A stretch of 50,564 bases of DNA from Deltaproteobacteria bacterium (lineage in GTDB: Bacteria; Desulfobacterota; DSM-4660; Desulfatiglandales; HGW-15). The translations under genes and the position numbers were made by a program. Under the pieces are notes generated by a model, which worked only from the letters and a program-made list of their open reading frames with translations, searched no databases and was not told where the DNA came from. This document shows, piece after piece, positions 2,672-8,618 of this stretch. How positions within the stretch are numbered: position 1 is the stretch's first letter; the number at the start of each line of letters is the position of its first letter. The stretch lies in assembly GCA_016931115.1 (NCBI GenBank), contig JAFGFM010000233.1:1-50564 (forward strand), read 5' to 3'.

Positions 2672-4402
2672 CTACCTCCACGCATCAATTGAAACAGGCC
2701 TGCCAAGACCGAAATCGGTAACAAACCACGTTGTCTGTATCCCCCCGCCAACAACAAGTATACTTATGCTCCTGGCATTAAGGGGTTTTATTAATGTGTC
2801 ACCTGGGAGTTTCAGGTAATCCGAATATGGTGGAATGCCCTGCCGCGCCATTGGCATATACATGGTGGCTGCGACTCCGTTACCGAAAAAAGAATCAACA
2901 GTTTTCTCAACATTATCTGCAAGATATTTACTGAGATCATCCTTTGTATTCATGTTGTAATCGGCCTTAAGAAGCTCTGCCACGGTTGGATCCATAATAA
3001 CTGTTGCACCACCTATTGCTGCAAGGGATCTCATGTAATCACGCATGAGAAGATGAGATGGATATGACTTTTGTGCCTCACCCACACTTGAAATATATGT
3101 CCAGCCTGTACCAAAGGAGACTGTGCTGTCATTTGGTTTAAATTTATTTTTTACATGATATGGCTGCCAGCCTTGAGGCAATGCCTCTTCATTCTCTGCA
3201 ATACAGAGGTTGTTGTACTGGAGGTTACTACCGAGTGTGCTGAAGGTTGTTACACCGTGATGAATATTTCCAGCTGTTTTACTCATAATAGTTAAACTTC
3301 GGCCAACAACAGAGTTTACCTCGTTATGGGGCCCCATGGCATTTCCTTTGTAGTTCATGCCAAGTTCATCACGTATAGGGCCGTTAACAAGGATCATATT
3401 TGCCATTGAGCTTGTTGAATTGCCAAATGGCACCTGGGTTGCAACAGCAAGGATAAGGGGCATATATTCCGGTTTGGCCCCAACCATGACAGCGCATATT
3501 GCTACCTTTTCTACTGTGAACTCCCTTTTTCCTCCTGGCCAGTCAATAATTTTAACCACCTTATCAGGGGCATGGCTGGTTCCTTCAAGCATTGCCCTGA
3601 CCCTTTCTTCTGTGGGCAGGATTATGGGGTTGTAATCTGTCCAGTCCTTATCTTTGAAAAGGCGCTGTAAATTTTCCTCTGTATCAGGTGGAAGAAACCT
3701 GGGTTCAGGTGTTGGCGCAGGTGCCGGGCCTGTGTATTTTTCATCCTTTGTGAGGGGCTTTGTAAGGTGTTCAACAACAGTCGGCATCATTGGTTTACCT
3801 GATAACATATCGTTTCCCCTGACATAGCGCTTGTGCACCTCCCTGGGCTGACCTGCCACAGGAAAAGGTATCCCTATATAACGGATGGGCATACCTGTTA
3901 CATTTGTTAAATTATATTCAACAGCATATTTCATCATATTGGCTGCCGCAGCTCCAACAGTGGGTATCTTATATGTTGTCTCCAGTGTTTTACAGAATCG
4001 GCTCACGGCCGAGGTACAAGAGTCTCAACCCGATACCCCGATTAATGCGGCATTTCCCTTTTCCCCGATCTCTTTCCATAAAGCAGGGTCATCGGCCATG
4101 TAGCTGCCAGCCTTTCTTTTAACAACAACATTCACCTTTGGCATGTTTTCGTTAAACCATATCTTCATCTCCTCGAAAACACCATAAGCCGCATCAGGGC
4201 CTCCCCAGTTGATATCAACCAGGTACACGGTCTTGCCATCAAGTGAATCAAGGCGTTCTGTCAATGCTACCCTGTCAACCATAGGGTTTGCTATTGCAGG
4301 GTTCATGACTGTAATTTTTTCGCTGCAATATAGAGTGTTGCTGATGAGCGCTAAGACAGCAACAAGGAGCAGTAGTCTTACTGACATAAATATCCTTTTC
4401 AT
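2672..4402 (-). CDS. UGSC-family selenoprotein with N-terminal export signal; Sec encoded by in-frame UGA at 4025-4027
   Basis: Two adjacent open frames (down to 4025 and from 4006) are in the same frame and are separated only by one TGA. Reading it as selenocysteine gives a 576-aa protein with the motif GVSG-Sec-DSCTSAVSRF, Sec126 and Cys129 forming a UxxC redox pair. This fits UGSC-type (seleno)proteins, where a KTVxLVD strand precedes a GxxD-UGSCTS loop. A short stem-loop just after the UGA could be the bacterial SECIS. The chosen start has a GAGG site (4412-4415) 9 bases upstream and gives a hydrophobic signal-like segment (about residues 8-22); an upstream ATG at 4432 lacks a site. The C-terminal 400 residues contain a conserved-looking motif (LVNGPIRDELGMN, NAMGPHNEVN) of unknown role. 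The gene follows the AOR gene but beyond a terminator. An alternative is a true nonsense mutation, disfavoured by the Sec context. Confidence 0.85.
3998..4027 (-). promoter_or_regulatory. candidate bacterial SECIS stem-loop after the UGA codon
   Basis: On the minus strand the UGA (4027-4025) is followed after 12 bases by TCGGC (4012-4008), the loop CGTGA (4007-4003) and GCCGA (4002-3998), a perfect 5-bp stem with a 5-base loop containing a G. The distance from UGA to the loop is 17 bases, within the range of bacterial SECIS elements. No strong lower stem is obvious by eye. Confidence 0.6.
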
Positions 4403-4480: not shown

Positions 4481-4556
4481 AATCGAAATCCAAATCGTTA
4501 TCGAAATCGAAATCGTCATCCAAATCGAACCCGATTTCGATTGCGATTTCGATTGT
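4481..4556. repeat. hexamer-based (ATCGAA) repeat folding back on itself
   Basis: Upstream of the selenoprotein gene the sequence repeats variants of ATCGAA/ATCCAA on one side (4481-4529) and the complementary CGATTT/GATTGC units on the other (4530-4556). The arm TCGAAATCG (4501-4509 and again offset by six) pairs with CGATTTCGA (4532-4540 and 4544-4552). The period is six bases, so it would be in frame if translated, but no credible gene covers it. Such repeats are prone to slippage and could form a stable hairpin in the selenoprotein leader. Confidence 0.7.
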
Positions 4557-4701: not shown

Positions 4702-6744
4702 TTAACCAAGTTTATCTCTCTTTTTAAGGAGGTCGGCCACGTTTTTAAGCCCCATCTTTTCAAGGGTCTTCTTTGTGGGATTACCGGTTTCAGCGTTATA
4801 CCCCTCAAATTTGTAGAACCTGCTCTTCCAGTCTTCAAACTTGGCCCTGTCAAGCGTTCTCCCTGCACCTTTATCATATGTCCATTTTCCGTTCAGGTAC
4901 ATTGGCAGATCACTACCCCTGCCGGGCTGGTCATATATATAGTCAGGAAATACCTCCATTTTGCTTGTCCTGCCCTGGAGTATCCATATGGATCTGTCAA
5001 GAGTATATATCTTATGGCCCATTTCCATTCCATCAGCAAAGCTCAGGTCCTGGCCTGTTACAGCCTTCCAGAATTTTGGCTCTGCATTTGGTGTGGGGCC
5101 GCGTCTGTCTTCTGTGTTGTTGGTGATGCACATTGGCCATCTCCATCCGCAGAAACCGCCGCCGCCGATCCACATCTTTTCATAATGCTTTACCCATGCT
5201 ACCTGCTTTACCTTGCTGTCAGAGTAGATACCGGTCGGGCCATCGCCATAGTCTATCATGTACTCATCACCGTTATATGGCACCATGGCATCTGTATAAA
5301 GCTTGGCTGCCTCTGCTGCTGTCAGGTAGGGGTCTCCTGACTGTGCCATCCAGTGAAGAGGATAATTTGCCATCATATGAAGCATCAGGTCACGTTCACC
5401 AAGGATTGAACCATAACCCCACTCTACCTCTGTCTGTGAATCATAATGTTCCTGGGTTCCCCAGTAGGTTAAACGGAGGATGCCTTTTTGCAGATCATCT
5501 TCATACAGGCCGTATTTGGCGGCAAATCTGGCTGCACCTTCGGCCATGTCATTACCGATTCCCTTGCGGTTGGATATTGCGTCAAGGAGCATCTGCGGGA
5601 ATCCTGGGTCATTCATCTTGTCGATAGGCAGATCACACTCTATTTTTTTGCCTTTACCAAGAAGACCGCGCATGTTCAGGCTGCGCAGATAGCCCATTGT
5701 TGGCATGAGCTGCCAGTGGCCGAGCCCCATTTTCTGCATCATGTCATTAGCTACCCTTGATGCCTTTGCACTGCCTGGCAGGCTAAATATCATTGTTCCT
5801 GCACAAACTGATTCATTGGAATCACCTGTGGCAAGCCTCATACGACAGCCTCTCGGGCATGATGCACAGGCCGCAGCCCTTGCAGGAATAAGGGGAGGAC
5901 TGCCATTGGTGACATTACCACCGCTCGGTGCGCCGCTTATAAGGCTGTAACCCATACCACCGAATCTTGCTGCCTCACGAGGGTTATCTACATTCCACTG
6001 AAACTGATTGAACCATAAACGGGCATCCATAAATGCCTTTGGATCGGCAATCTTTACACCGCCCGTGCCTATTGCGCTGATGGCTTTAAGATTTTTCGAA
6101 CCAAAGACACCACCGAAACCGCACAATGCGGCCTGTGAACCAGGGCCATGAAGCAGGCAGCCAAGACGGCTAAGGTTTTCACCTGCGGGGCCGCAGCATA
6201 CCACAGCAGGCACCTGGGTTGTAAAATCATCATCTGCAACCTGTGCCCATTCTCCCTGCCTGAGGCTTGGAATAACACGTCTGGCTATCTCCTCCTGGGT
6301 ATCCCAGGTGTCCATACCCCATACACCCTTGCCATCTTCAATGGTTACCTTGTCATTAATTATATTTATCCATACAGGGGCACTTGCAGCCCCTTCAACT
6401 ACGATACCGTCCCACCCTGCAAATTTAAGCTGAGAGGTAAAACGACCACCAAAGTTACTGTGGCCGAACCACTCTATGGGGTAGAGCATCGGGCCAAGAC
6501 CCTGCACTTCACATCTCCCTGATGCAGGCACGTTTGTCCCTGAAAAGGGTGATGTCATCATTATTATAAGGTTTCTCTTGTCGAATGCCTCAAATGGCAA
6601 CTGATCACCAACCAGATCAAAAAATATTGCTGATCCGATTCCATGACCTCCGCCAAATGCCAGATACTTTTCTGTTGAAATGGTGCTGACCGATTTATCA
6701 GTCAGGTTTACTCTTGCAATTTTACCTGTATATCCGCCTTTCAT
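4702..6744 (-). CDS. aldehyde ferredoxin oxidoreductase family protein (tungsten/molybdenum bis-pterin enzyme)
   Basis: The product (680 aa) begins with the AOR N-domain signature (GGYTGKIARVNLTDKSV, then YLAFGGGHGIG) that binds the two tungstopterin moieties. It carries the [4Fe-4S] ligand set CxxCxxxC at Cys293, Cys296 and Cys300, with a later Cys in the GGGGFCGWRWPMC region as probable fourth ligand. AOR enzymes oxidise aldehydes to acids, or in relatives (YdhV-like, BamB-like) catalyse other low-potential redox steps, using ferredoxin-type partners. The start is ATG 6742-6744, with GGAGG at 6751-6755 overlapping the stop of the ferredoxin gene; an ATG two codons upstream has no room for a site. 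AOR itself has no export signal, yet its partner does. Length is slightly above the roughly 605-650 aa common for the family. Confidence 0.92.
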   Translation of the reverse strand: MKGGYTGKIARVNLTDKSVSTISTEKYLAFGGGHGIGSAIFFDLVGDQLPFEAFDKRNLIIMMTSPFSGTNVPASGRCEVQGLGPMLYPIEWFGHSNFGGRFTSQLKFAGWDGIVVEGAASAPVWINIINDKVTIEDGKGVWGMDTWDTQEEIARRVIPSLRQGEWAQVADDDFTTQVPAVVCCGPAGENLSRLGCLLHGPGSQAALCGFGGVFGSKNLKAISAIGTGGVKIADPKAFMDARLWFNQFQWNVDNPREAARFGGMGYSLISGAPSGGNVTNGSPPLIPARAAACASCPRGCRMRLATGDSNESVCAGTMIFSLPGSAKASRVANDMMQKMGLGHWQLMPTMGYLRSLNMRGLLGKGKKIECDLPIDKMNDPGFPQMLLDAISNRKGIGNDMAEGAARFAAKYGLYEDDLQKGILRLTYWGTQEHYDSQTEVEWGYGSILGERDLMLHMMANYPLHWMAQSGDPYLTAAEAAKLYTDAMVPYNGDEYMIDYGDGPTGIYSDSKVKQVAWVKHYEKMWIGGGGFCGWRWPMCITNNTEDRRGPTPNAEPKFWKAVTGQDLSFADGMEMGHKIYTLDRSIWILQGRTSKMEVFPDYIYDQPGRGSDLPMYLNGKWTYDKGAGRTLDRAKFEDWKSRFYKFEGYNAETGNPTKKTLEKMGLKNVADLLKKRDKLG

Positions 6745-6754
6745 TTCCATCCTC

Positions 6755-7543
6755 CTATTGCTTTGCCTTTGGCTTTGGTCCACCAAACATCCTTGGTCCC
6801 ATATTTTTATACTTTGGTGGTATTATCCTGCTGTCATCTACCAGACCCAGATTCAGGAAGTGATCATTGCGCAGGTTTACATTATATCCTTCGGTCTCTT
6901 TCTGGTCAGGTGTTTCAGTGACAAACTTAATGGCCTGCATGGGGCATGACTGTACGCATGCCTGTTTGCCGCCAGGACCGCCTTTTTCATCCCAGAAGGG
7001 GGTATCTATGCAAAGATCGCATTTTGTGGATTTTCCCAGGATGTGGTTCCATATGGTGCGGTGAGGCTGCTGCGGACACATTTCAAGGCATGTTTTACAA
7101 CCGATACATTCCTCTTCATTGATCCTTCTCACGTTTCCGTTTTCTGTGTCAATAAATGCCGCTCCTACAGGGCAGTTGATGACACATGGCGGTGTTACGC
7201 ACTGACGGCATACAGAGATCTGAAGGTCATCAGGGAATTTCCCGAATGAATTCTGTATTATCTGGATACGTGAAAGTGAAAGATTCTGCTCTCCATAATG
7301 AACCATTGAGCAGCTCAGCATGCAGGTAGTGCAACCGATACACTTTTTACTGTCATAAACCAGATAGCCTTTGGATTCGGGGTATGATGCCCCTTTGGCC
7401 TCTTCTGCAACAGCGGTTTTCACACCGGTTGACACGGCAATTGCTCCGGCAGCAAGCGCAGCGCTTCCGCCGACAAGGAATTGCCTACGATTCATTGTTT
7501 TTTCTGGGGCTTCTTTTTTGTCAGGTTTTTTGTTTTTTGGCAT
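6755..7543 (-). CDS. Tat-signal four-cluster ferredoxin-type electron transfer subunit
   Basis: The protein (262 aa) has a twin-arginine signal (NRRQFLVGG at about 18-26, followed by an Ala-rich hydrophobic stretch ending near AVAEEA), then several CxxCxxCxxxC clusters. The first has Cys68, Cys71, Cys74 and Cys78; others begin at CRQC, CIGC and CDLC, with the last cysteines in CVQSCP. This DmsB/HybA/YdhY-like arrangement passes electrons between a catalytic subunit and a membrane or periplasmic partner. The start ATG (7541-7543) has AGGAG at 7551-7555; an upstream in-frame ATG would bury the signal. It is the first gene of a two-gene operon with the AOR. If the signal works, the AOR could be exported as a hitchhiker; alternatively the signal may act only as an anchor. 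Confidence 0.9.
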   Translation of the reverse strand: MPKNKKPDKKEAPEKTMNRRQFLVGGSAALAAGAIAVSTGVKTAVAEEAKGASYPESKGYLVYDSKKCIGCTTCMLSCSMVHYGEQNLSLSRIQIIQNSFGKFPDDLQISVCRQCVTPPCVINCPVGAAFIDTENGNVRRINEEECIGCKTCLEMCPQQPHRTIWNHILGKSTKCDLCIDTPFWDEKGGPGGKQACVQSCPMQAIKFVTETPDQKETEGYNVNLRNDHFLNLGLVDDSRIIPPKYKNMGPRMFGGPKPKAKQ

Positions 7544-7629
7544 TCGTTGACTCCTTGATTGATAACGGGTTAAAATCATTTTAAACAAAAAATAAGTTCA
7601 AAATGGCCAGCTATTTATGAAGAACCCGG

Positions 7630-7742: not shown

Positions 7743-8618
7743 TTACCACCCGAAGGGTGTGTCTTTCGGGACTATTTCACAGTATGCCTCAGCCACATGG
7801 ATAAGGTTGTCATATATCTTGAATGAGTGCCATACATCGAGTTCTCCGTCACCCCGAAATAGAGACCCCGGGCCGAAATTCATACGTACTGCCACTACGC
7901 CCATCTCCTCATCTACTGCAATTGTTCGGTATTTTATACCTGCGAGTGTAGGGATAAACTGCTTTTTCATATTATCGCAACCCTTGAAAAAGGTGCATTC
8001 CGGGCCTGCCATGAGCTGCCCGTTTTCGAACCGGTAGGCATTGTCAGCCATTGGCGAATCCACCTTTACAAAACTCCCGACCTTTAAACCCTCAGGGTAT
8101 GTATCGGCCATTTTGATAGCCTTTTCTCTATCAACAAGCTGCTCTTTTTTGGGTACATAGGTCATACCCTTGCTTACGGTCTTCAGGTTTTCCGGGGTAA
8201 AGAGCATTCCCTCTTCCTTTCCCCTTACAACGGTTGACTCTATTTCACTTATCTTCTGATCCTCTATCTTAAGTCTGAAAACAAAGAGCACAGGCAGCTC
8301 TTTTTCTTCAATAACAAGGAATGATACAGCTACTCCCTGTTTTACATCAAGAATGTCACGCCTGTAGTCGGTCAGTTTGATCTTGCTCTGCCACAAACCT
8401 TGACCAACCTTTATCTCTTTACAGTCCTCTGTAAATTTTACCTTTGGTGAAAGGGGCAGGAGATCGGGTTTCTGAGCAACAAGCGCATCAAGATAACTTG
8501 TGACAAACCCCTTAAGGCACTCTCTGTCACATTTTGTAGATACACTTACGCAGGAGATACTGCTGAAAAAGATTAAAACAATTGTGAAAAATAAAGCCGG
8601 GACAGTTTTTTTTAACAT
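7743..8618 (-). CDS. probable lipoprotein with DUF8021/NTF2-like C-terminal region
   Basis: The 291-aa product starts with a hydrophobic signal ending in FSSISC, an imperfect lipobox, so the mature protein would begin at Cys23 and sit in the envelope. It has an N-terminal half of unknown fold and a C-terminal region (about 200-291) with VDEEMGVVAVRMNFGPG, LDVWHSFKIYDNLIHVAEAY and a final PFGW. That pattern resembles the NTF2-like domain called DUF8021, in which a small beta cone binds an unknown ligand. An AGGAGGAG site lies just upstream of the ATG. It is upstream of the ferredoxin-AOR operon but separated by a promoter. The domain name is from memory and uncertain. Confidence 0.7.
   Translation of the reverse strand: MLKKTVPALFFTIVLIFFSSISCVSVSTKCDRECLKGFVTSYLDALVAQKPDLLPLSPKVKFTEDCKEIKVGQGLWQSKIKLTDYRRDILDVKQGVAVSFLVIEEKELPVLFVFRLKIEDQKISEIESTVVRGKEEGMLFTPENLKTVSKGMTYVPKKEQLVDREKAIKMADTYPEGLKVGSFVKVDSPMADNAYRFENGQLMAGPECTFFKGCDNMKKQFIPTLAGIKYRTIAVDEEMGVVAVRMNFGPGSLFRGDGELDVWHSFKIYDNLIHVAEAYCEIVPKDTPFGW

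Follow-up and report, generated by a model that had tools for sequence, protein, structure and literature searches.

The stretch of DNA analyzed here (50,564 nt, hereafter the window) contains two neighboring open reading frames separated by a single TGA, which raises the question of whether these are two genes or one selenoprotein gene and, in the latter case, what its product might do. A preliminary description of the locus, made from the sequence alone, had proposed the second reading. The frames are in phase, as it described; they lie on the minus strand and run from the ATG at 4402 to the stop codon at 2672-2674, and the TGA at 4025-4027 (codon 126) is the sole internal stop. The junction, described as GVSG followed by DSCTSAV, reads ...AALIGVSG-U-DSCTSAVSRF..., and it places the proposed pair of Sec126 and Cys129 at the site of the UGSC motif, whose form here is U-D-S-C. 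The assignment to the UGSC family also held, as Pfam PF24696 matches residues 32-194 with 37.1 bits against a gathering cut-off of 25. The score against the NCBIfam equivalog NF041046 (UGSC_fam) is 28.5 bits, below the cut-off of 125, and the protein is therefore not filed under NF041046. Finally, the C-terminal region, for which no role had been assigned, matches no Pfam or NCBIfam model from about residue 228 to residue 576. We conclude that the region is very probably one selenoprotein gene with a probably exported product rather than two genes (Table 1).

Table 1. Coordinates of the features at and next to the UGSC locus (positions in the window).
Feature	Position	Strand	Remarks
UGSC-family selenoprotein gene	2672..4402	-	576 aa with putative Sec126, stop codon included; L071 orthologue 92% identical, TGA kept
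In-frame TGA, predicted Sec126 of the UDSC motif	4025..4027	-	TGA shared by 68 aligned family members, with Cys at +3 in 66 of these
Putative bacterial SECIS hairpin UCGGC-CGUGA-GCCGA	3998..4012	-	12 nt 3' of the TGA; silent conservation and covariation
Signal-peptide-like N-terminus, residues 1-26	4325..4402	-	Sequence and hydrophobicity heuristic; no cleavage site from a dedicated program
UGSC domain, about residues 30-215	3758..4315	-	Predicted Rossmann-like alpha/beta fold; probable distant relative of the GrdB Sec domain
C-terminal partner domain, about residues 228-576	2675..3721	-	Unmatched in Pfam and NCBIfam; no clear fold match in the PDB
Aldehyde:ferredoxin oxidoreductase (AOR)-family gene	4702..6786	-	Upstream of the UGSC gene, same strand
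Fe-S ferredoxin-type subunit, Tat-like N-terminus	6755..7588	-	Overlaps the start of the AOR gene

The UGA at codon 126 was taken as selenocysteine, a prediction from sequence that we hold to be almost certain. The preliminary description had made this reading depend on the presence of the selenocysteine machinery, and SelA, SelB, SelD and tRNA-Sec were all found, each above its cut-off, in the source genome, a fragmented draft assembly of 5.18 Mb in 240 contigs (98.5% complete). The tRNA-Sec scored 73.6 bits and was also identified by ARAGORN with the anticodon TCA, and the SelD gene carries an in-frame TGA too. One TGA is kept in every orthologue of the window gene: in G001 (92% identity), in G006 (70%) and in six named MAGs (64-67%), which are labeled Acidobacteria and Gammaproteobacteria. 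More broadly, a TGA occupies the Sec column in 68 of the 83 aligned homologous stretches, and 66 of these 68 have Cys at +3. Comparison of the window gene with L071 yielded dN/dS values of 0.12 for the part before the TGA and 0.085 for the part after it, which indicates purifying selection on both sides. Homologues with neither Sec nor Cys at residue 126, which had been named as evidence against the reading, do exist in some paralogous clades (Ser, Ala, Asn or Leu), whereas the orthologues keep the TGA. The expected Cys homologues across the TGA are represented by CGSC in one related locus (L150), and none was found within the close family. This distribution suggests that Sec was lost in separate branches and not in the window gene's own line; in the clades with neither residue, the fold may have another role.

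The stem-loop of 5 bp that had been described 12 nt after the TGA was found at 4012-3998 (minus strand); its 5-nt loop contains a G. When only the window sequence is considered, the folding energy of the hairpin is unremarkable (z of -0.30). The hairpin is, however, clearly beyond chance across 21 related genes: 94% of the cells of the stem are paired, two pairs have changed on both sides in a compensatory manner, and all five measures lie above every, or nearly every, shuffle. Among the 248 codons that could be tested in these genes, the highest silent conservation was observed for Ser131, Ala132, Val133 and Ser134 (TCG GCC GTG AGC), all of which lie in the hairpin. We used this silent-site test because a run of 14 codons 3' of the TGA that are identical to those of L071 proved not to be unusual, the gene having runs of 17 elsewhere. 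Many other subfamilies present a hairpin at about the same place with a different sequence and, based on synonymous shuffles of 68 genes, the hairpin region is more stable (mean z of -1.11) than the rest of the genes (-0.15). An Rfam scan of the window matched no family, a result that is uninformative because bacterial SECIS elements vary. With strong support from the sequences, SelB and tRNA-Sec would thus carry translation through the UGA at a bacterial SECIS hairpin.

The claim of an N-terminal signal-like helix stood, and a simple hydrophobicity rule identified signal-like or lipoprotein-like N-termini in most family members (L036, L091 and L114 are among those without one). Export itself, and with it the location of the selenol, was assessed by such heuristics. 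These suggest that the 576-aa protein is probably exported and that its Sec center is hence probably extracytoplasmic.

We then considered the fold and kinship of the UGSC domain. An AlphaFold2 model (pLDDT 73.9, pTM 0.69) places residue 126 where a helix begins after a central strand of a Rossmann-like sandwich. Structure comparison of the model gave a best Z of 10.2, and the matches listed are alpha/beta sandwich folds, a list from which the absence of the thioredoxin fold is no exclusion. The predicted fold appears Rossmann-like rather than thioredoxin-like, the latter having been suggested for UGSC by the 2008 Global Ocean Sampling study (PMC2398784). A profile of the selenoprotein subunit GrdB of glycine reductase was built from twelve PF07355 loci of the phylum, most of those listed carrying the motif UGTCTRC. 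Profile-profile comparison against the UGSC domain gave a probability of 88.5% for the window's family (P0001 clade), 96% (E of 3.9e-9) for the remaining UGSC proteins of the phylum and 95.4% for both sets joined. Sec was aligned on Sec in each case, and reversed controls remained below 3%. The GrdB motif UGTCTRC is aligned to UGSCTSC or UDSC, some UGSC proteins, the one in L132 among them, share the pattern UxxCxxC with GrdB, and both families present a PHPxG region. In contrast to GrdB, the window protein lacks the N-terminal half, has a signal-like N-terminus and shows no PF07355 match: none was found in P0001 at an E-value of 0.001 and none in its genome, while 66 further genomes of the phylum contain PF07355. 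No solved GrdB structure was found for comparison. These results suggest a distant kinship between the UGSC domain and the GrdB Sec domain.

The C-terminal domain (C-domain) yielded nothing convincing when compared to Pfam, NCBIfam, PDB sequences and PDB folds. Modeled alone (pLDDT 74.8, pTM 0.77), it presents a weak structural likeness to class I fumarate hydratase and to cyclic-amide hydrolases, with a best Z of 5.5 that is within the range of unrelated pairs. Sequence comparison revealed no conserved Cys or His but an invariant Asp256, Asn363, Arg368 and Glu403. Profile comparison detected no relation to GrdB, and we rejected the C-domain as a homologue of GrdE (hhalign probability of 0.4%). 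The partner of the UGSC domain thus differs from that of glycine reductase, and a pyruvoyl-type mechanism is unsupported because of this lack of a detectable relation to GrdE. The association of the two domains is nearly constant. Of the 297 genomes of the phylum searched with a profile, 29 contained matches. Among 26 loci examined, 25 combine the C-domain with UGSC, either by fusion or through a UGSC gene of the same locus. Separate genes are usually close, in either order and often with gaps of 3-70 bp; in L150, the UGSC gene in Cys form lies about 1.2 kb from the C-domain. The exception, L134, has no UGSC gene within the 1.5-kb flanks of its C-domain. In L131, a single-domain UGSC member that scores 144 bits, above the NF041046 cut-off, stands beside a C-domain gene. 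L127 was considered as another case of separate subunits and was discarded, since it contains a frameshift and is probably a broken fused gene. In several relatives, a thioredoxin (CxxC) or AhpC/TSA domain is fused N-terminally to the C-domain. Together, these observations suggest an enzyme of two parts that uses a thiol reductant, on the plan of glycine reductase.

AOR genes are also found near other UGSC subfamilies (L033, where the gene lies 8 bp downstream, as well as L075, L100 and L110), and glycyl radical enzymes are found near other UGSC members; both types of neighbors are catabolic genes of anaerobes. The neighborhoods are nevertheless varied, and AOR adjoins only some members. Two further features were observed around these genes. 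Repeats of the hexamer AATCGA lie between the UGSC and AOR genes (window 4481-4529), and a longer array occurs on a second contig of this genome (L031, 138-219). In addition, a probably secreted family without Pfam match is encoded near UGSC genes at window 7743-8618 (minus strand) and at ten other loci, and has 14 copies in three genomes.

The source genome contains about 16 family members when contigs C2 and C49 are counted as one split gene; 14 of the 16 have an in-frame TGA and two do not. The named MAGs possess 9-30 family matches each. A tree of 76 proteins pairs most paralogues with one-to-one orthologues in G001, which belongs to the same genus, and in G006, from a different genus; such orthologues span G000, G001 and G006, and the family is therefore an old, kept set and not an assembly artefact. 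By comparison with the 14 Sec members of this one genome, a 2016 survey reported 33 UGSC selenoproteins in 26 organisms (PMC5029168). A 2026 review mentions a Methylomirabilota MAG with 63 selenoproteins (PMC13188914).

Several paralogues depart from the common motif. In L052 (1201-1818, plus strand) and L060 (970-1563, plus strand), Sec is replaced by Ala and the Cys is kept (ADAGSC and GDAGSC), which makes them natural Sec-to-Ala paralogues. The paralogue at L054 (928-1428, plus strand) has a shifted motif, GNGGUTCAGP, that is Sec-x-Cys instead of Sec-x-x-Cys. A non-Sec paralogue on the minus strand of L066, near 1580 (G003:C68), contains an in-frame TAG (LNDOVVYVIN) in place of the Lys of its relatives' GK motif, which could be pyrrolysine, a point mutation or a sequencing error. 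Finally, one paralogue possesses a tandem TGA TGA (GFGGUUGC) at L044:366-2186 (plus strand), L082 7574-9394 (minus strand) and L116:3-1763 (plus strand) and the bases after it. A second site near its C-terminus, TGA-N-TGA (GGHUxU), is conserved in the three genomes and is followed in all three by the same strong 8-bp hairpin. This paralogue is a probable four-selenocysteine protein (Sec-Sec and Sec-x-Sec).

As far as can be read from these sequences, the locus combines a Sec codon, a SECIS element, two domains, kinship to GrdB and a recurrent partnership. Our preferred reading, to which we assign a probability of roughly 55%, is that of a two-domain selenoenzyme which acts outside the cytoplasm and, as in glycine reductase, cleaves an organic substrate reductively. 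The Sec126/Cys129 pair at the helix start of the N-terminal UGSC domain is the proposed active center, and the C-domain would bind the substrate. By analogy with the Sec of GrdB, the UGSC selenol would attack the substrate and reductively cleave a carbon-heteroatom bond. The resulting Se-S bond would then be reduced by a thiol donor, a function that the fused thioredoxin or AhpC domains may serve in relatives. The many paralogues would represent different substrate specificities of one anaerobe. No substrate or activity was found for any UGSC protein in the literature searched; a GrdB-like operon linked to fluoroacetate dehalogenation offers a precedent for substrates other than glycine (PMC10838667).

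Other readings of the locus must be weighed against this one. If the TGA were a true stop, the region would consist of two genes or a pseudogene, the second frame starting from the GTG at 4006. Such a start codon is present 3' of the TGA and the energy of the single-window hairpin lends this reading some support, but it would split the UGSC domain in two. It also fits poorly with a TGA kept across dozens of homologues with no other stop, with purifying selection on both sides, with a silently conserved and covarying hairpin and with a complete Sec machinery, and we regard it as extremely improbable.

Granting one selenoprotein, the product might instead be a Sec-dependent thiol/selenol oxidoreductase or peroxidase of the cell envelope, which would reduce disulfides, peroxides or oxyanions with the C-domain as a binding partner. 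We consider this unlikely. UxxC is indeed like redox motifs, and the AhpC/TSA and thioredoxin domains fused to relatives' C-domain, the signal-like N-terminus and the thioredoxin-like fold assumed in 2008 (PMC2398784) all point in this direction; yet the predicted fold is Rossmann-like, the profile kinship is with GrdB, and 14 Sec copies with catabolic neighbors suit substrate catabolism better. It is also conceivable that the C-domain, as a lyase or hydrolase, sets the chemistry and that Sec only activates or protects it. Most subfamilies keep Sec, which argues against this scenario even though Sec-less paralogues exist. The invariant acid, amide and arginine residues of the C-domain, with no Cys, agree with it, as does the likeness to fumarate hydratase and the cyclic-amide hydrolases, but structural scores of that size are those of unrelated pairs. 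We judge it distinctly improbable.

Part of this system was already known. Selenoproteins of the UGSC family rank among the most abundant in aquatic metagenomes, and the Global Ocean Sampling study described a UGSC selenoprotein fused to a conserved domain, Unknown_1 (PMC2398784). The window protein resembles this fusion in joining a UGSC selenoprotein to a conserved unknown domain, Unknown_1 being compared by its description alone. In contrast to the window's C-domain, the fused domains of that study as a rule hold conserved Cys (PMC2398784). Relative to the PF24696/NF041046 family, the window protein is above the PF24696 cut-off with UxxC at the defining site, but it differs by its long fused C-domain, its probable export and its UDSC in place of UGSC. 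Prior knowledge thus covered the UGSC family itself and a single fusion of UGSC to an unknown domain, whereas the partnership and its scale appear new: no paper on the link between UGSC and GrdB, on a constant partner or on such an expansion was found in a search that covered a minority of subscription journals and preprints.

More tentatively, and at slightly less than even odds, we propose that UGSC and the C-domain form a distinct class of selenium-dependent reductases evolutionarily linked to glycine reductase, made of fused exported proteins or neighboring subunits, with more than a dozen Sec versions per genome. The size of the expansion also bears on annotation: in every genome of this kind, automatic callers will split or truncate over a dozen genes. 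With the near-constant partner, the kinship to GrdB and the old, specialized expansions, what was an "unknown redox protein" becomes a two-part reductase that can be tested. If this proposal is true, one anaerobe could reductively degrade many different organic compounds outside its cytoplasm.
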